From Gelidibacter algens (GTDB lineage Bacteria > Bacteroidota > Bacteroidia > Flavobacteriales > Flavobacteriaceae): a stretch of DNA of 48,093 nt. Below are positions 51-48,093 of this stretch, in pieces. Each line of letters starts with the position of its first letter. Position 1 is the first letter of the stretch. A model generated the notes under the pieces. That model was not told the origin of the DNA. It searched no databases and was given only the letters and a program-made list of their open reading frames with translations. Made by a program: the position numbers and the translations under genes. The stretch spans positions 1 through 48,093 of the forward strand of contig NZ_LZRN01000031.1 of the NCBI RefSeq assembly GCF_001678675.1, read 5' to 3'.

Positions 51-123
51 TCTTGGTCGGTTAATTTTTATTGCGTAATAAAATAGTACAACGAAGGTTT
101 GTAAGACTTGCGTTGAAAAAAAT

Positions 124-1180
124 TTAATTGACAATCAAATTATATGATGTAACTAAAAACTGTTCAGTTCCAATGGTTGTTTTTTGGACATATATCTCTA
201 TATAGTCATTTTTAACTACATCTACAGTTCCAATAATTGATACTGACTGTCTTGCGTTGGTTTGCAGTACATCAGCAATGACATCGCTTCCAACTACCTT
301 TGCACCATTTTTATAGATCGAAAAGGTATATCGACTTCCAACTGTAGCAGTAAAAGATAGTGAACCCAAAACATTTATCGCTCTTCTGCCTTCTCCTTCA
401 TATATCAGCCGATTTTCACTATTTACACCTGTACCCTCTGCAGTGCGGAATAACCTAAGAGCATTTGTGTTAACTGGCAATTTGAATGGAGTTGTAATAC
501 TAAGAGTTATTATAGTGGAGCTATCATAATATAAATTACCAGTAGCCTCACTATCAATTTCCTTTGGGATACCAGGTGAATCTACAGACCAGACATTACT
601 AAAGTTAAACCCTGTATAAGAGCCTGTAGTATATCTTTTGACGTACTGCGTACCAGTTCCACTAAAACTAACACCAGATAATACGGCCTTGGCTACAGTT
701 GGATTGGAACTTACATCGATACCTTTTGCTGTACCATCAATGACCATAAACCCGCCTTGTTTTTGAATAAAGTCAAAAGTTCCAGTAAACGTTTCATAGG
801 TTCCAGCATTATTAGCAAACCAACCTATATTACTAATGAGTAGTTGTTTGATGTTTGCAAAAGTGATTCCTGTAGTGTTGCCTACATATTGTGCAACACT
901 CATAAACACCATTCCATAATTAGAAATAGATCCAACCGATGCTGAACTGGCAATAACTAAATCCCTGAGGATTAAATTTTGCGCTTCACTCCCTGTCAAA
1001 TAGCCGCTGGGTTGTATTCATTCTAGGCGCTAGCATACCTTTTGTTGTGGATTTTACATCCAACATGGCGGATGCTTCTGGAGTCAAAGTTCCGATACCC
1101 ACTTGTGAGTAACCAGTGGTGCTCAATAAGAATAAAGCGATGAACTTTATGGTGATAAGGGGTAGTTTTTTCATTTTCAT
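124..1180 (-). pseudogene. Broken paralogue of the 'VGIGT' secreted surface protein
   Basis: The 5' part (1180 down to 986) encodes a signal peptide and the start of a Bacteroidota surface protein (GYSQVGIGT, then a GMLAPRM motif), nearly identical to the start of the gene at 1574-2995. It meets a stop after about 64 codons. The rest of the protein continues in another frame from about 999 to 124, about 290 codons, with no ATG of its own (first usable codon TTG). Compared with the intact paralogue, roughly 100 codons between the GMLAPRM motif and the LRDLVIA/IQDLAIA motif are missing, so an internal deletion probably caused the frameshift. The C-terminal part matches the paralogue in pattern (DYIEIYV against DYLEVFI). 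It is probably a non-functional relic, though the long open 3' part suggests recent loss. Confidence 0.75.
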
Positions 1181-1398
1181 AATTAGTATTTTAGGATTTT
1201 AGTAGATTTTTTTGAGGTTTCTTTATTAAGAACAACAATGTAAACGCCTTGACTTTTATTAAAGGGAATGCTGATGTTGCTCTGATTGTTTAGGTTTTCT
1301 GAGATGGTTAAAATATGCTGTCCAACTACATTATAGATGTCAATGCTTTTGACTTCTAAATGACTTGGTTTTGTTACCACAATTTGGTTGTTACCATT
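1085..1398. repeat. 314-bp near-perfect direct repeat, copy 1
   Basis: Matches 2900-3213 at a constant offset of 1815 bp with no gaps and only two mismatches in my reading. It spans the end of a T9SS sorting domain, a 2-bp gap and the signal peptide of the next gene. Sequence outside the repeat is strongly diverged between copies, which points to gene conversion or homologous exchange confined to this segment. Confidence 0.9.
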
Positions 1399-1560
1399 TT
1401 AATAAACCAATGTCTTATCTAAATATGTGGCGCTTATGTAAATAGAATCTTTAAAGTTCTCTTATTCTTTGATCATTAATTGATGCTTTTTGATGCTTGA
1501 TATTGTTACGTCTATTGGGAATTCCATAAAGTTTAAATTTCTATCAACGCCTTATATGAT
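1183..1560 (-). pseudogene. C-terminal remnant of a duplicated T9SS-sorted surface protein
   Basis: Positions 1380-1183 encode a 65-residue T9SS type A sorting domain that differs at only one or two residues from the C-terminus of the gene at 2998-4971. Upstream (1400-1560) the reading frame is lost, but homology to 3360-3500 of the intact gene can still be followed: the translation EFPIDVTISSIKKHQLMI matches EFPIGLIISETGTHQLMI, then stops. There is no signal peptide or promoter, and further upstream the gene is replaced by the intact VGIGT gene. This is the 3' stump of a second copy of the cargo gene. Confidence 0.8.
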
Positions 1561-1573
1561 AAACTCAAATGTT

Positions 1574-2995
1574 TTAGTCAGTAACTCTAAATTGTAATTC
1601 ATCTACCCTAATTGATGAGGTATTTAGATTATTTCTGGATATAAAAACTTCCAGATAATCACCAGCAACCAAATTTACTTCGGTATTTAGAATAATTTGA
1701 AAAGACTGATTATTTGTAGCGGCCGCCATAGAAGATACAGGTGCAATAAGCGCAGTTCCATTTTTACCAAGACCAATTGAAAAATCAGCGTTATTAGTTG
1801 GCGCTTTTGCACTGATCACTACTGAAACTTTGCCGACCATAGGTTCTACGCCATTATATGTAATTTTATTATCACTTGCAGTAAATCGCTTTTGGTCAAC
1901 AATGGTAGATGCCCCAGCTATTTTAAAAAAAAGATTCGTTCCACCTGTAAAATATGTCAGTGCAGTATTGCTATTAAAGTAAATAAAACTAAACGCTCTT
2001 GAATCTGGTATATTGGTGTTTTGCTGCATACTCCAACCAGGAGCGTAAGAGTCTATCCCGCTTAAAGGAGTTGTAACACCTCTAAACATATTGGTGGTCA
2101 TTCGCCCTCTATCTATAGTACCTGCTACCGTGATACCTGTACCGCCAGCATAAATGAAATAATTATTTGACAAATCAATATCATCAACTGTCAATCCAGA
2201 CAGAAATTCCATTCCAGAGCCGCTGCTACCAATACCTTCAATAAAGTTCAAACTAGCGGCAAATTTGCCTACATTGCCAGTTACTTTTACACCATCGCTT
2301 ACTTTCCACAAATTTTTAACAAAGGTAATTGCCTTAAAACCAGAAATTTGACCCACTCCTTTTGATGCAACAAGTTCCACTATCGAAGCCCCCGAGAAAG
2401 AGTTGAAATACATTGTACCTGTGCTATCTGAAACATCATACGCCTTAGTGCTAGCACTATTAAGTGCTATTGCTAAATCTTGAATGAATATATTCTTATT
2501 TGTACTTCTCAGCACGGCACCGTTTACGTTAGACACTATCATATCTTTTTGTGGGTCAGTACCTCTAAGTCCTGCCCCATTGATATTAATATAATTTACA
2601 CCAATGTTAACCATACCTGAAAAAACATACATTTTATTTCCATCCAGTGTAATACCACCACTAACAGGGGTTGGTAAATCAGTCAGTGAATAAACATAAA
2701 CAAGGTTAGAGTTTATAGAAAACGAAAAAGATTTCCAAACACCATCGCTATAGATATCTGATGAATTGTTGGTGGTATTATAAATCTGTAATCCTTCCGC
2801 GGGTTCGGATATGCCATTTCTTTGAATTTCAGTCATTCTAGGAATTAGCATCCCTCTCGATGTGGAATTTATATCCAACATTGCTGATGCATTGGGCTCC
2901 AAAGTTCCAATACCCACTTGTGAGTAACCAGTGGTGCTCAATAAGAATAAAGCGATGAACTTTATGGTGATAAGGGGTAGTTTTTTCATTTTCAT
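1574..2995 (-). CDS. Secreted 'VGIGT'-type surface protein (function unknown)
   Basis: 473 residues. A signal peptide (basic KMKK start, hydrophobic core, likely cleavage after GYS) leads into QVGIGT and a GMLIPRMT motif, the hallmark N-terminus of many Bacteroidota exported proteins. The middle is rich in Gly, Asn, Ser and Thr and looks like beta-helix or beta-sandwich repeats (for example SNNYFIYAGGTGITVAG). The C-terminal 120 residues resemble a jelly-roll domain. I see no T9SS sorting domain. It starts 2 bp after the stop of the upstream cargo gene, so the two are probably co-transcribed. A broken paralogue lies just downstream. The role (adhesion, matrix or tail-spike-like) cannot be told from sequence alone. 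Confidence 0.8.
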   Translation of the reverse strand: MKMKKLPLITIKFIALFLLSTTGYSQVGIGTLEPNASAMLDINSTSRGMLIPRMTEIQRNGISEPAEGLQIYNTTNNSSDIYSDGVWKSFSFSINSNLVYVYSLTDLPTPVSGGITLDGNKMYVFSGMVNIGVNYININGAGLRGTDPQKDMIVSNVNGAVLRSTNKNIFIQDLAIALNSASTKAYDVSDSTGTMYFNSFSGASIVELVASKGVGQISGFKAITFVKNLWKVSDGVKVTGNVGKFAASLNFIEGIGSSGSGMEFLSGLTVDDIDLSNNYFIYAGGTGITVAGTIDRGRMTTNMFRGVTTPLSGIDSYAPGWSMQQNTNIPDSRAFSFIYFNSNTALTYFTGGTNLFFKIAGASTIVDQKRFTASDNKITYNGVEPMVGKVSVVISAKAPTNNADFSIGLGKNGTALIAPVSSMAAATNNQSFQIILNTEVNLVAGDYLEVFISRNNLNTSSIRVDELQFRVTD

Positions 2996-3213
2996 AATTA
3001 GTATTTTAGGATTTTAGTAGATTTTTTTGAGGTTTCTGTATTAAGAACAACAATGTAAACGCCTTGACTTTTATTAAAGGGAATGCTGATGTTGCTCTGA
3101 TTGTTTAGGTTTTCTGAGATGGTTAAAATATGCTGTCCAACTACATTATAGATGTCAATGCTTTTGACTTCTAAATGACTTGGTTTTGTTACCACAATTT
3201 GGTTGTTACCATT
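2900..3213. repeat. 314-bp near-perfect direct repeat, copy 2
   Basis: Partner of 1085-1398. It covers the last ~70 codons of the intact T9SS cargo gene, the 2-bp gap and the first ~30 codons of the following gene. The two differences seen are G/A in the codon after the signal peptide region and T/G giving Lys to Thr in the sorting domain. Confidence 0.9.
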
Positions 3214-12741: not shown

Positions 12742-12773
12742 TCCCCTCCTAACCTCCCCAAAGGGGAGGAATT
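12742..12773. repeat. GC-rich palindromic repeat (copy at DUF58 start)
   Basis: CCTCCCC-AAA-GGGGAGG hairpin (12753-12769) preceded by TCCCCTCCTAA. On the - strand it supplies the AGGAGG ribosome binding site of the DUF58 gene. Same architecture as copies at 21166, 47555 and 48048. Confidence 0.7.
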
Positions 12774-20639: not shown

Positions 20640-21164
20640 ATGCTAAAGAAAGACTGCTTCTACGTTGGAAAAATTGTAAAAAAATACAGTTTTAAGGGAG
20701 AATTGTTAATAAAACTAGACACGGATGAACCGGAAATTTATGAAGACATGACCTCTGTTTTTGTAGACCTCCGCAACAATCTGGTCCCGTTTTTTATTGA
20801 ATCGTCACAATTGCACAAATCTGAATTGCTGCGCATCAAATTTGAAGATGTCGATACTGAGGCGGATGCCGATGCGCTTTTAAAATCAGATTTGTATTTG
20901 CCATTGGAATTTCTTCCAAAACTTGATGATGACAAATTCTATTTTCACGAAATTATCGGATTTACAGTAGAAGATGTCAATTTTGGCAAGGTGGGCATTG
21001 TAAAGTCAATTAACGATTCTACCGCCCAAGCGCTTTTTGAAATTGATCGAGACGGGATTGAAATACTGATTCCGATGAATGATGCCTTTATCAAAAAGGT
21101 GGATAAAAATAAAAAACTTATTTTGGTAGAGACCCCTGAAGGACTTATTGAGCTTTATTTGTAA
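20640..21164 (+). CDS. rimM: Ribosome maturation factor RimM
   Basis: 174 residues, the normal length. N-terminal RimM domain (CFYVGKIVKKYSFKGELLIK) and C-terminal PRC-barrel (FYFHEIIGFTVED, then VLIPMNDAF-like ILIPMNDAFIKKV). It helps assemble the 30S head near S13/S19 and h31/h33b of 16S rRNA. It is downstream of rpsP as in most bacteria, 216 bp apart, with a terminator between. A GC-rich palindrome separates it from trmN6. Confidence 0.95.
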   Translation: MLKKDCFYVGKIVKKYSFKGELLIKLDTDEPEIYEDMTSVFVDLRNNLVPFFIESSQLHKSELLRIKFEDVDTEADADALLKSDLYLPLEFLPKLDDDKFYFHEIIGFTVEDVNFGKVGIVKSINDSTAQALFEIDRDGIEILIPMNDAFIKKVDKNKKLILVETPEGLIELYL

Positions 21165-21165
21165 T

Positions 21166-21198
21166 CCCATCCTAAATCCTTCCCAAAGGGAAGGACTT
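21166..21198. repeat. GC-rich palindromic repeat (rimM/trmN6 junction)
   Basis: TCCTTCCC-AAA-GGGAAGGA hairpin (21177-21195) preceded by TCCCATCCTAAA. An 8-bp stem with a 3-nt loop, starting immediately after the rimM stop and ending 10 nt before the trmN6 ATG. Same layout as 12742-12773. Confidence 0.65.
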
Positions 21199-21205
21199 CA
21201 CTCCT

Positions 21206-21940
21206 ATGGAAAAATTATTTAAATTCAAACAATTTACTGTAAATCAAGACCGATGTGCCATGAAAATAGGTACGGACTCAGTTTTGTTAGGGGCTTGGAC
21301 ATCGTTGGACAACCATCCGGATGCTATTTTGGATATTGGTGCCGGAACTGGGGTTTTAGCTTTAATGATGGCACAGCGCAGTAACGCTGAACTTATTGAT
21401 GCCATTGAAATTGATGACGCTGCCTATGAGCAATGTGTAGATAATTTTGAACACTCGCCGTGGGGAGATCGGCTTTTTTGCTATCATGCCGCTTTAGATG
21501 AATTTGTTGAGGATCTCAATGATGAAGAATCAGGAATGGATGATACTTATGACGTGATTATATCAAATCCACCGTTTCACTCAGATACCTACAAAAGCGA
21601 CAATGAGCAACGGGCTATGGCACGATTTGTTGATGCAATGCCATTCCGACACCTCATTGAAAGTGTTGCAAAACTACTTTCTGAAAAAGGCACATTCTCT
21701 GTAGTTATTCCATTTTCAGAAGAAAAGGATTTTATAGTATTGGCATCCAAAGAAAATCTGTTTCCTAAACGGATTTTAAGAGTTAAGGGAACCCCAAAAT
21801 CAGATATTAAACGCAGTTTAATTGAGTTTTCATTTCAGGAAACAACTGTGGATCCTAAAGAACTTATTATTGAAACGGCCCGACACCAATACACCGATGA
21901 TTATATAAAATTGACCCAAGACTTTTATCTCAAAATGTAA
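21206..21940 (+). CDS. trmN6: tRNA1(Val) (adenine37-N6)-methyltransferase
   Basis: 244 residues, class I SAM methyltransferase. The SAM loop is DIGAGTGVLAL (about 43-53), the acidic ribose contact is E in AIEIDD, and the amino-methyltransferase catalytic motif is NPPF in IISNPPFH. Family: YfiC/TrmN6, which makes m6A37 in tRNA1(Val). Starts 41 bp after rimM, so the two are probably co-transcribed. Substrate is inferred from family only. Confidence 0.85.
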   Translation: MEKLFKFKQFTVNQDRCAMKIGTDSVLLGAWTSLDNHPDAILDIGAGTGVLALMMAQRSNAELIDAIEIDDAAYEQCVDNFEHSPWGDRLFCYHAALDEFVEDLNDEESGMDDTYDVIISNPPFHSDTYKSDNEQRAMARFVDAMPFRHLIESVAKLLSEKGTFSVVIPFSEEKDFIVLASKENLFPKRILRVKGTPKSDIKRSLIEFSFQETTVDPKELIIETARHQYTDDYIKLTQDFYLKM

Positions 21941-45701: not shown

Positions 45702-46012
45702 ACAGTGATATTATAAAACACTTGAAAACTTCAGTAGTTTTTTTATAATTTGTTGCTATCGATCTCGGAAAATTACTTTGAAATAAAATTCCAACACTTA
45801 TTTAAGAAAATACAGCTGGTTTTGTCAAGCGTATTAAAAGAATGTTGAGTGCGCTAAAAAAAAATTGACATAAAACAAATATCAATAAAATTTATTACAT
45901 TAGCCATCGTTCACGAGCACTGAAGCACTTGGACAGACCCAAATCAACCTAAAAAAGTCACTTGTCCTTAAAAAATTGCCAACGTGTCTCTTAACTAACC
46001 TATTTAATTAAA
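45702..46012. other. 311-bp spacer upstream of the lipoprotein gene
   Basis: AT-rich with no gene. It contains a possible TTG...TACATTAG promoter (near 45870-45905, one base off TAnnTTTG and with long spacing) and a roughly 110-nt leader. Nothing else recognised. Confidence 0.45.
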
Positions 46013-46528
46013 ATGAAAAAACTACATTTTATTTCCGTTCTGTTCCTTTCAATGCTTATATTTTCTTGTAGTAGTGATGACACGACTGATGCTCCTACTG
46101 AAGGCCCAAAATTTCAGGCCTCACTAAATGGAGGAACATTTTCAAATTACAGCTTCCAACTTGGCGCTTATGAAGCCACTAAGGGTACCAACGGCAACAC
46201 TTTGAGTATAGACATCGCCGACACCAAAGGGACTGCAATTAGTTTATTCCTGAACAATACTGACGGTTTTAAAACGGGTACCGTGAAACAAATTGGAAAC
46301 ATTGATTCAGATAACTTTATCACTCACAGTGTGATTAGAGATGTGAGTACGGCAGTATCTTATTATTCTAAAACTGGAACGATAAAAATTACCAATAATC
46401 GGGAACATCCATCAAATGCACAACAGCGCCTTATTTCAGGAGAGTTCAATATTGTGGCATCTTCCATAGATGGCACCAAAACCACAACAATAAAAGGTTC
46501 TTTTGAAGAGCTCGCCTATAACAATTAA
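46013..46528 (+). CDS. Secreted lipoprotein, DUF6252-like
   Basis: 171 residues. Lipoprotein signal with lipobox IFSC (Cys19) followed by SSDDTTD; the acidic residues after Cys resemble the surface-export signal (LES) of Bacteroidota lipoproteins. The rest is an all-beta domain ending RLISGEFNIVAS...KGSFEELAY, similar in layout to DUF6252 proteins. Function unknown; no linked partner gene. Confidence 0.75.
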   Translation: MKKLHFISVLFLSMLIFSCSSDDTTDAPTEGPKFQASLNGGTFSNYSFQLGAYEATKGTNGNTLSIDIADTKGTAISLFLNNTDGFKTGTVKQIGNIDSDNFITHSVIRDVSTAVSYYSKTGTIKITNNREHPSNAQQRLISGEFNIVASSIDGTKTTTIKGSFEELAYNN

Positions 46529-46612
46529 AAATATACTAAAATGCTTTCAAAGTTGGTCAATGACATTGTCTTATTCCAGTAAGAAATAATTAGAACAATT
46601 CACAAAAGCATA

Positions 46613-46653
46613 AAACCGAATTTCAACCTACACAGGTGAAATTCGGTTTTTTT
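46613..46653. terminator. Bidirectional terminator between the lipoprotein and metallopeptidase genes
   Basis: AAACCGAATTTCA, an 11-nt loop, TGAAATTCGGTTT, then a T-run; A-run on the other side serves the convergent gene. Confidence 0.93.
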
Positions 46654-46675
46654 ATATATTCTTTTTAGAGGAATT

Positions 46676-47383
46676 TTAATCTCTTCCCCCAAAAACCGCC
46701 ATAGCCCAATATAACAACGAGGCTAGCGCACCAATTGCGGCAACTAAATAAGTTCTAGCAGCCCATTTGAGTGCATCTTCTGACCCTTTGTATTCTTCTG
46801 GCGTGAGCATATTTTTTCCTTTCAACCATGCTAATGCCCTGTTACTCGCGTCATATTCAACAGGTAATGTTATAAAGCTGAACAATGTTGCAAATCCCAT
46901 AAACACCAATCCTGCCACGGCAATATAGTATCCAAATCCAGCACCTGCGGCAGCACCAAGAATCAAGCCTCCAATCACCAACCATTGTGACATGCCTGAA
47001 GTAACACTCACCACGGGCACCAATGCTGAACGCATTTTTAGAGCGCCATAAGCTTGCGCATGTTGCACGGCATGACCACACTCGTGGGCAGCAACTGCAG
47101 CGGCAGCGGCATTACGCTGCTCGTAAACAGATTCACTAAGGTTAACTGTTTTATTTGCCGGATTGTAATGGTCTGTCAATTGTCCTTTTACAGAAATGAC
47201 TTCTACATCACTAATGCCATTATCAGCTAACATTTTTTCAGCAATTTCCTTTCCGCTCATTCCATTTTTTAAATGGACTTGCGAGTATTTTTTGAATTTC
47301 TTTTTTAATTGGCTGCTTACCAACCAGCTGACCAGTGCTATACCTCCAATTAAAATCCAATAGCCTAAACCTATTCCACCCAT
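46676..47383 (-). CDS. Membrane zinc metallopeptidase (YugP family)
   Basis: 235 residues. N-terminal membrane segment (6-22), zinc motif HECGH in AAHECGHAVQHA at about 99-103, and further membrane segments at about 125-150, 155-175 and 205-228. Family of neutral zinc metallopeptidases (YugP), thought to act in membrane-protein quality control; no proven substrate. Monocistronic. Confidence 0.9.
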   Translation of the reverse strand: MGGIGLGYWILIGGIALVSWLVSSQLKKKFKKYSQVHLKNGMSGKEIAEKMLADNGISDVEVISVKGQLTDHYNPANKTVNLSESVYEQRNAAAAAVAAHECGHAVQHAQAYGALKMRSALVPVVSVTSGMSQWLVIGGLILGAAAGAGFGYYIAVAGLVFMGFATLFSFITLPVEYDASNRALAWLKGKNMLTPEEYKGSEDALKWAARTYLVAAIGALASLLYWAMAVFGGRD

Positions 47384-47554
47384 GTTTTCTTTTTTTTAAA
47401 TTTAGATTAAATATAGCAAAAAGTAAGCCAATTTAACGTCAGGAAATTTTGTCAGCTTTCTTACTATTTATCTCGTTCAAAGTGCTGATGGTGCTGAGTG
47501 AGTAACTAATCAAAATCCACCTCGTCTTCTGTTTCTTTTCGGAAACAAAAGACA

Positions 47555-47575
47555 CTCCTCCTTGAAAAGGAGGAG
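47555..47575. repeat. GC-rich palindromic repeat (after leuS)
   Basis: CTCCTCCTT-GAA-AAGGAGGAG, a perfect 9-bp stem with a 3-nt loop, 19 bp past the leuS stop. Same architecture as the copies at 12753, 21177 and 48059. Confidence 0.75.
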
Positions 47576-47593
47576 AATTCCTCATCAGAATAT

Positions 47594-48093
47594 TTATCCT
47601 ACGATATTAACAATTTTCCCAGGAACGATGATCACCTTTTTAGGGGTGCGTCCTTGCAATTGCTCTTGGGTTTTTTCATGTGCCATCACTGCTTTTTCGA
47701 TGTCCGCATTTTTCATATCCAATGGTAATTCTAAAGTGAATTTCATTTTCCCATTAAAAGAAATTGGATAGTTCTTGCTGCTCTCCACCAAATGACTAGC
47801 ATCAAATTCTGGAAATGGCGCTGTTGAAATAGATTCGTTATGTCCTAATTTATCCCATAATTCTTCCGCAATATGCGGTGCATAAGGCGATAACAAAATC
47901 AAGAAAGGCTCCAAAATTGCTCTGCTTGTACATTTTTGGGCGGTCAATTCGTTCACCGCAATCATAAAGGTGGAAACCGTGGTATTGAAGGAGAAGTTTT
48001 CAATGTCTTCTTCCACTTTTTTGATGGTTTTGTGGAGAATTTTGAAATCCTCCCCTAACCCCTCCGAAGGAGGGGAACTGTTGACGTAAAAAC
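47594..48093 (-). CDS. leuS: Leucyl-tRNA synthetase, C-terminal part (5' end outside the window)
   Basis: About 166 codons of the 3' end; the frame remains open to the window edge. It covers the tRNA-anticodon-binding helices (STFMIAVNEL, PYAPHIAEELWDKLG) and the C-terminal domain (QLQGRTPKKVIIVPGKIVN), which places it in LeuRS. Upstream, the frame includes a foreign-looking SSPPSEGLGED peptide encoded by a GC-rich palindrome, directly before FKILHKTIKKV. Attaches leucine to tRNA-Leu; essential. Confidence 0.93.
   Translation of the reverse strand, partial: FYVNSSPPSEGLGEDFKILHKTIKKVEEDIENFSFNTTVSTFMIAVNELTAQKCTSRAILEPFLILLSPYAPHIAEELWDKLGHNESISTAPFPEFDASHLVESSKNYPISFNGKMKFTLELPLDMKNADIEKAVMAHEKTQEQLQGRTPKKVIIVPGKIVNIVG
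48048..48077. repeat. GC-rich palindromic repeat in frame inside leuS
   Basis: CCCCTCC-GAA-GGAGGGG hairpin (48059-48075) preceded by TCCTCCCCTAA, the same layout as the intergenic copy at 12742. On the coding strand it is read as SSPPSEGLGED without stop or frameshift. Confidence 0.75.

Follow-up and report, generated by a model that had tools for sequence, protein, structure and literature searches.

How does a short palindrome come to lie within the gene for an essential aminoacyl-tRNA synthetase and stay translatable there? The question is raised by the end of the window, the whole stretch of DNA analyzed here (48,093 nucleotides of Gelidibacter algens, comprising one whole contig, C31), which stops 18 bp beyond such a palindrome in leuS. 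Most of the remaining gene lies on contig C71 (locus L015, positions 85-3168), where the leuS frame is interrupted near the contig edge, within the first ~200 bases, perhaps by small indels that are assembly errors. The unit is antisense to leuS and in frame with it, and the coding strand around it reads ...FYVN-SSPPSEGLGED-FKILHKTIKKV (Table 1).

Table 1. Features of the leuS end of the window and of the related repeat copies within it
Feature	Position	Strand	Basis or remark
leuS 3' end (LeuRS C-terminal 165 codons)	47594..48091	-	ORF list; aligned with relatives; open at contig end
Putative intrastrand-triplex type repeat in leuS, read SSPPSEGLGE(D)	48049..48075	+	polymorphic in genus
Third strand CCTCCCC, mirror of left arm	48049..48055	+	mirror test
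Linker TAA, 3 nt	48056..48058	+	3-nt linker in 60/69 junction elements
Pyrimidine arm CCCCTCC	48059..48065	+	
Loop GAA	48066..48068	+	
Purine arm GGAGGGG	48069..48075	+	
Second family copy, CCCCTCC taa CCTCCCC aaa GGGGAGG	12743..12773	+	between two - strand genes
Third family copy, CCCATCCT aaa TCCTTCCC aaa GGGAAGGA	21166..21198	+	covariance-model match

A dispersed repeat translated in leuS and other genes

An earlier note, made from the letters of the window, described a dispersed palindrome in frame in leuS, read as SSPPSEGLGED, and this description is borne out. A covariance model built from 14 copies, copies from this genome among them, gave 60 matches in the genome at E<=5 and 52 at E<0.1, a lower bound because 150 of the 1191 first-look candidates were scored; its match to the window unit spans 48049-48079. 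The note had also placed the same unit elsewhere in the window, which is true of the family but not of the exact unit: the window contains a 24-nt pattern of the unit a single time at a tolerance of three mismatches (and 0 of 100 dinucleotide shuffles of the window contain it), and the arms of the other two copies, CCTCCCC and TCCTTCCC, are unlike those in leuS. The third copy occupies most of the 41-bp gap between the + strand ORFs 20640-21164 and 21206-21940. An Rfam scan of 46000-48093 returned three weak matches at E<=1, all under gathering scores and none at the unit.

Elsewhere in the genome, exact copies of the unit were found on C22 (C22:37815), within the EPSP synthase gene aroA (assigned by Pfam) and with the same peptide SSPPSEGLGED, and on C51 (C51:31), directly after a stop codon. 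We placed the 55 best of the 60 matches relative to ORFs, excluding the five weakest, and 18 of them fall inside ORFs 100 aa or longer, among them leuS and aroA. Several of the ORF copies are N-terminal and may not be translated. Internal copies, with hosts named by Pfam, occur four times in leuS (the window copy and three on C71), in EPSP synthase, in a 2-oxoacid dehydrogenase E2 between the lipoyl and catalytic domains, and in a methylmalonyl-CoA mutase/MeaB protein. The same antisense frame is used by seven of the eight 31-nt copies in ORFs of this genome, some of them N-terminal and possibly untranslated, and by our reading four of the six frames of the exact unit are open. The idea that a palindrome entered an essential gene and remains translatable is upheld, with the addition of a preferred frame. 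Several copies in the genome form inverted pairs ~60-165 bp apart.

In another locus (L170, G000 C1:212035-224540) six repeat copies lie one per ~2.5 kb, as if in or between the members of a tandem gene array.

Three-strand anatomy and pairing code

The copies share, with deviations, a layout of third strand (k nt), linker (3 nt), pyrimidine arm (k nt), loop (3-5 nt) and purine arm (k nt), and linker and loop are both 3 nt long in 142 of the 196 distinct elements from all loci fetched. Across 111 hairpins the third strand matched the mirror of the left arm with a mean of 0.678, compared with 0.573 +/- 0.009 with arms exchanged among hairpins (highest value in 200 exchanges, 0.597). The fit is confined to part of the set, with a match >=0.85 in 41 of the 111, and a second hairpin class has no third strand. 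A direct-repeat relation of third strand to arm was rejected, at 0.580 vs 0.562 against the mirror's 0.678 vs 0.573.

Purine-motif triplexes follow a pairing code on the purine strand, with G.GC, A.AT or T.AT triads. The third strand obeys this code. Counts were taken from hairpin orientations with no more than two deviations (261 of 836), a selection that limits the number of deviations and not their type. Deviations from the mirror rule were A for T in 189 of 200 cases; of the 562 third-strand positions at which the mirror rule calls for T, 373 hold T, 189 hold A and none holds C or G, and C is kept at 1398 of the 1409 that call for C.

By this anatomy, a hairpin with a third strand of equal length attached through a short linker, the leuS unit can be classed as a repeat of the BoxC/PIT/TM intrastrand-triplex type and may fold accordingly. 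The cited parts of Holder et al. 2015 (PMC4666352) give the E. coli consensus as CCCTCNCCC N3-6 GGGNGAGGG N3 GGGNGAGGG, with TTA or CCG as the second loop; read as its reverse complement this gives third strand, 3 nt, arm, loop and arm, the same anatomy. Those parts also report inverted pairs for E. coli and triplex formation by the motif in vitro. According to the same parts of that paper, the MG1655 repeats are always intergenic, have no mobility gene at their sites and are of unclear origin. The copies described here differ in lying in frame in genes and in flanking DUF559 nuclease genes (see below). With a third of the placed copies of G. algens inside ORFs, the intergenic habit is in our view a trait of the E. 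coli set rather than a defining feature of the class.

A linker of 3 nt and a loop of 3 nt make the unit 3k+6 nt long, a multiple of three at any arm length k, so no special tuning for reading as peptide need be assumed. This simple structural basis takes the place of the tuning to be read as peptide that the earlier note had supposed.

The earlier note had likened the insert to the palindromic elements of Rickettsia, and its overall interpretation is supported in part: the repeat works like those elements but looks different. Rickettsia palindromic elements (RPE) and intragenic REPs are likewise short palindromes in genes, aminoacyl-tRNA synthetase genes included, that are read as peptide, but they have GTAG or CGTC tags and other sequences, as far as the cited sections of PMC3733652 describe them; those sections give the CGTC tag for RPE-4/6 and state that CGTC REPs have no dedicated transposase. 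Movement as REPs by an IS200-type Y1 (RAYT) transposase might be considered, the genome having two Y1_Tnp genes and intragenic REPs being known (PMC3733652, same sections), but the hairpins detected in the 14.2 kb surrounding the two genes were all of the CATCGGAA type, and neither a GTAG tag in the 14 aligned copies nor a flanking Y1 transposase was found. We consider this very improbable, and a Rickettsia-type element of the CGTC superfamily slightly more improbable still: in-frame insertion in essential genes with a preferred frame would suit it, but the copies and their 10-12 nt flanks have no conserved CGTC tag (although a lone CGTC or GACG tetramer is present in some flanks) and the three-strand anatomy is different.

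Presence and absence of the insert in relatives

We searched 30 genomes for LeuRS and aligned the G. algens protein with 22 others, leaving out seven. The alignment suggested by the earlier note revealed relatives without the insert: within the genus, the peptide is present at the leuS loop in four of nine genomes (G. algens, G199, G200 and G205), and the loop lacks it in the other five (G013, G201, G202, G203 and G204). It is present in none of the 14 further aligned LeuRS sequences. The loop segment measures 114 nt in G199 and G200, 99 nt in each of six relatives and 105 nt in one more, which indicates that the insert took the place of some variable-loop sequence and was not cleanly inserted. 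On the LeuRS tree the distribution of the peptide needs two changes. The leuS of G200 has another site at which this peptide core recurs, as SPPSEGLGEA. In other genera the same loop holds unlike repeat copies in either orientation (L188, L213, L217, L225, L228, L238), and from this variety we conclude that repeats have probably hit the loop more than once.

At an N-terminal leuS site, before YYVLDMFPY (for example in L188, L189, L200, L205, L218, L230 and L234), other, unrelated-looking repeat peptides occur (such as PALSGVEG, PPLSGEMEGA and PVLSEVKG), which suggests that several repeat families use this site. Other short LeuRS inserts were seen (L067, L074 and L063): HSELNSES in G005 and NEAQQSQR in G202, both at the editing-domain site, and MPTGQAGG in G206, before EVEKMSK.

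A DUF559 domain in the same leuS and in other host proteins

The first reading of the window missed three more copies in the same leuS and, inserted in its editing domain, a nuclease domain. One of the three copies is the left border of a whole in-frame DUF559 domain (PF04480, E 6e-33), which lies in the C71 part of the gene between WIGKSVGATVLF and VFTTRPDT. Its closest relative among the named-genome matches listed is in Gelidibacter gilvus. DUF559 matches occur in 89 of 199 Flavobacteriaceae genomes, weak Vsr-sized ones included, and lie inside LeuRS in at least 17 (one split ORF counted); in this family the domain is also found in MetH, in RecG, at the C-terminus of HisD, and fused to HemD and to a PLP-dependent enzyme. 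We took the best 80 of 525 relatives of the LeuRS-type domain found in named genomes. All 80 sit in frame in a host ORF, some of which are shortened by contig ends or stops, and the hosts are 71 LeuRS (70 by motif and L226 by eye), two MetH, one PurL and six UvrD-like helicases (one by Pfam, five by resemblance). One DUF559 group lives in frame inside essential proteins, joined by repeat-encoded linkers and with no sign of splicing. Inteins, too, are in-frame inserts of conserved proteins and bring a homing-type nuclease, but their self-splicing Hint domain sets them apart: the Pfam matches of ten DUF559-bearing host proteins include no intein or Hint domain, which argues against splicing of the embedded domain.

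In six loci (L027, L033, L037, L043, L044, L089) the N-terminus of uroporphyrinogen-III synthase (HemD) carries an in-frame DUF559 joined by linkers that derive from repeats, and these HemD-borne domains form one clade in the DUF559 tree. A GYMTGGNNSH-like stretch precedes embedded domains (A5, L173:4935-5399, and relatives).

The residues E, QH, DF, E-x-DG, H, D and R, of catalytic type, are invariant in all 39 sequences aligned (39 of the best 80 loci). A predicted model of the domain (155 residues, mean pLDDT 73.9) matches the structures 3hrl and 3r3p, the latter being I-Bth0305I (profile E 2.8e-7; TM to target 0.81). In fold and catalytic-type residues the domain resembles the EDxHD/Vsr-like homing endonucleases, and by profile and predicted model DUF559 is a Vsr/EDxHD-fold nuclease family related to I-Bth0305I. 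The similarity to those enzymes is at profile level, and they are group I intron endonucleases, chiefly of phages, in the cited parts of PMC3943268; DUF559 here is instead a domain of housekeeping proteins, with triplex repeats either side. A quite different role, that of a mismatch-repair nuclease, is proposed for a Caulobacter DUF559 protein in the cited part of PMC12907096. In the predicted LeuRS of L173 (mean pLDDT 75.1, pTM 0.60), the insert bridges two strands, with pLDDT <50 in its linkers.

Inheritance, transfer and possible domestication

Seven pairs of the embedded domain gave dN/dS of 0.077-0.144 with dS near saturation, and a decayed pair gave 0.187; the pair L083/L086 yielded no value because its synonymous sites were saturated. 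Such strong purifying selection would be expected if the domain had been domesticated as a part of LeuRS, for example as a nucleic-acid sensor, with the small leuS repeats being unrelated neutral inserts. The same explanation could account for the single editing-domain position that DUF559 occupies in the LeuRS loci, and it would suit an arrival in LeuRS by one entry, which the test of the DUF559 tree does not reject (p-AU 0.18), although LeuRS needs four changes on the best tree. This tree groups the domains by host, with RecG (5), MetH (4) and HemD (6) each on one side of a branch. Domestication also suits the mostly vertical divergence. LeuRS and DUF559 distances correlate at 0.59 across 57 loci, and the inserts of G. 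algens and G205 have diverged as their hosts did (90/107 identical vs 83%), both of which indicate that much of the inheritance is vertical.

The distribution of the domain speaks against domestication. Related domains occur in at least six other proteins. Within the genus the domain is in the LeuRS of only two of nine genomes, and in G200 it is found instead in a class I synthetase of 1302 aa that appears by sequence to be isoleucyl-tRNA synthetase (IleRS-like). Copies in G002 and G113 are decayed. Identity tracts confined to the insert are a further argument: in two LeuRS pairs the inserts are almost the same although the hosts have diverged. Bizionia algoritergicola and UBA5079 (a MAG) share 309 of 318 positions in the insert and 975 of 1120 (87%) in the flanks, with a 338-bp run of at most one mismatch that spans most of the domain and the right repeat; in a Dokdonia pair the figures are 313/318 and 979/1120 (87%). 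Such a tract is strong in these two of the five pairs compared, the other three being weaker or showing none beyond chance, and p-values for the tested pairs are not to be taken at face value because the pairs were picked as outliers among 57 loci. On balance we regard domestication as quite unlikely.

Repeats and DUF559 genes occur together

Repeats are enriched 30- to 50-fold near DUF559 genes, in counts of loci related by descent rather than of independent events. The 38,326 bp that lie no further than 300 bp from DUF559 hold 108 pyrimidine-arm hairpins, vs 15 in the 159,223 bp beyond 600 bp, and of 64 distinct DUF559 loci 51 have at least one such hairpin and 29 have them on both sides. 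At the 80 named-genome loci (best of 525), a set that overlaps the 64 in some organisms, we counted 69 strict triplex elements in 36,000 bp vs 22 in 575,589 bp; 47 of these 80 loci have a strict element and 17 have one on both sides. The elements are oriented, + on the left flank in 32 of 32 cases and - on the right flank in 31 of 37, which is an inverted arrangement with third strands outermost. The repeats thus flank DUF559 genes, often on both sides, and also occur alone and as inverted pairs.

Across 60 genomes of the family, repeats were found in 14 of the 22 with strong DUF559 and in 3 of the 38 without (p=7e-6, by a test that ignores phylogeny). The only repeat of G050 is itself a DUF559 flank, and setting it absent gives 13 of 22 (p=3e-5). 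DUF559 was counted as present at E below 1e-20, so the decayed copy of G002, the fragments of G013 and weak Vsr-sized matches do not count. The three genomes with repeats and no DUF559 match are G019 (nine repeats), G021 and G057 (one each), and 8 of the 22 DUF559 genomes have no repeat match. At 33 of the 80 embedded loci (best of 525) no strict repeat lies within the scanned distance. For junctions without a strict repeat, as for repeats without DUF559, loss and decay are the one explanation available.

The association extends to hairpins of other kinds and to other phyla. The hairpins beside many DUF559 genes lack a third strand, and different hairpin families adjoin different DUF559 groups. 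Among 39 plasmid records from Cyanobacteriota, Deinococcota and Pseudomonadota, ten loci were examined and six have such hairpins (15 in 6,000 bp vs 12 in 37,656 bp). In E. coli MG1655 a full TM element lies 167 bp downstream of ycjD, a DUF559 gene; with the 23 such elements that the cited part of PMC4666352 gives for MG1655, we estimate the probability of chance nearness within 300 bp of ycjD at ~0.5%. Our searches of open-licence PMC papers turned up no link between DUF559 and these repeats, although one may have been published.

A second DUF559 gene class (PAEAFLW type; L021, L039, L042, L049, L107, L111) is flanked by hairpins that lack the third strand, namely CCCCTCTTT...AAAGAGGGG with agct and CCTCCCTTT...AAAGGGAGG with tgg. 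The window has a hairpin resembling these, CTCCTCCT/AGGAGGAG at 47555-47575, directly past the leuS stop (compare L051, adjoining DUF559); it may be an ordinary terminator.

These associations could also arise if DUF559 were a passenger: the triplex repeats would be pre-existing fragile sites or recombination hot spots, nuclease genes would gather at the breaks, and the repeats would spread by replication errors at triplexes. Triplex repeats have been tied to local genome instability in E. coli (in the cited part of PMC4666352), and the repeats in the three genomes without a DUF559 match are compatible with this, as are the embedded domains without a strict repeat. Yet the ordered geometry of the flanking repeats suits the ends of an element better, distinct hairpin families beside distinct DUF559 groups are likewise better suited by element ends than by random hot spots, and repeats and DUF559 co-occur across genomes. 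A passenger role for DUF559 is unlikely in our judgment, if less so than domestication.

A possible class of mobile element

That the repeats flank a nuclease family which is itself built into essential proteins suggests what may have spread them. We think it probable that the leuS insert derives from a mobile element with triplex-repeat ends and a DUF559 enzyme, of which it would be a non-autonomous copy. The ends of this element would be intrastrand-triplex repeats of BoxC/PIT/TM anatomy, and its enzyme would be the DUF559 nuclease of Vsr/EDxHD fold. The nuclease might recognize the repeat or the empty target and then nick or cut the DNA, after which repair would copy the whole element, in a homing-like manner, or its end alone, leaving a short repeat like that of the window. 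With a length of 3k+6 nt and several open frames, repeats inserted in surface loops can survive as peptide. The copy in the window may have been moved by the DUF559 of the same leuS. Several observations weigh against this reading: embedded loci without a strict repeat, repeats in genomes with no DUF559 match and DUF559 genomes with no repeat, flanking hairpins that lack a third strand, largely vertical inheritance, the replaced loop at the leuS site, and the other role proposed for the Caulobacter protein. The arrangement resembles REPtrons, in which a nuclease-like gene is flanked by palindromes that are also dispersed alone, but the enzyme of these RAYT systems is a Y1 tyrosine transposase (cited sections of PMC3733652), as against the Vsr-like DUF559 here.

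More tentatively, and with belief and doubt almost evenly matched, we propose a class of mobile elements in which unspliced homing-type DUF559 nucleases reside in essential proteins, have triplex-repeat ends and shed short translated repeats. Such elements would be the missing mobility system of BoxC/PIT/TM across several phyla, with E. coli ycjD as its relic. Our searches of open-licence PMC papers turned up no mobile-element class that combines unspliced DUF559 with triplex-repeat ends. A named nuclease family beside triplex repeats makes the question of their mobility testable, E. coli K-12 included. If the proposal is true, selfish DNA has a route for adding whole domains to essential proteins (LeuRS, an IleRS-like synthetase, MetH, RecG and PurL).

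The window also holds a 300-bp direct repeat, 94% identical, at 1018-1317 and 2833-3132.
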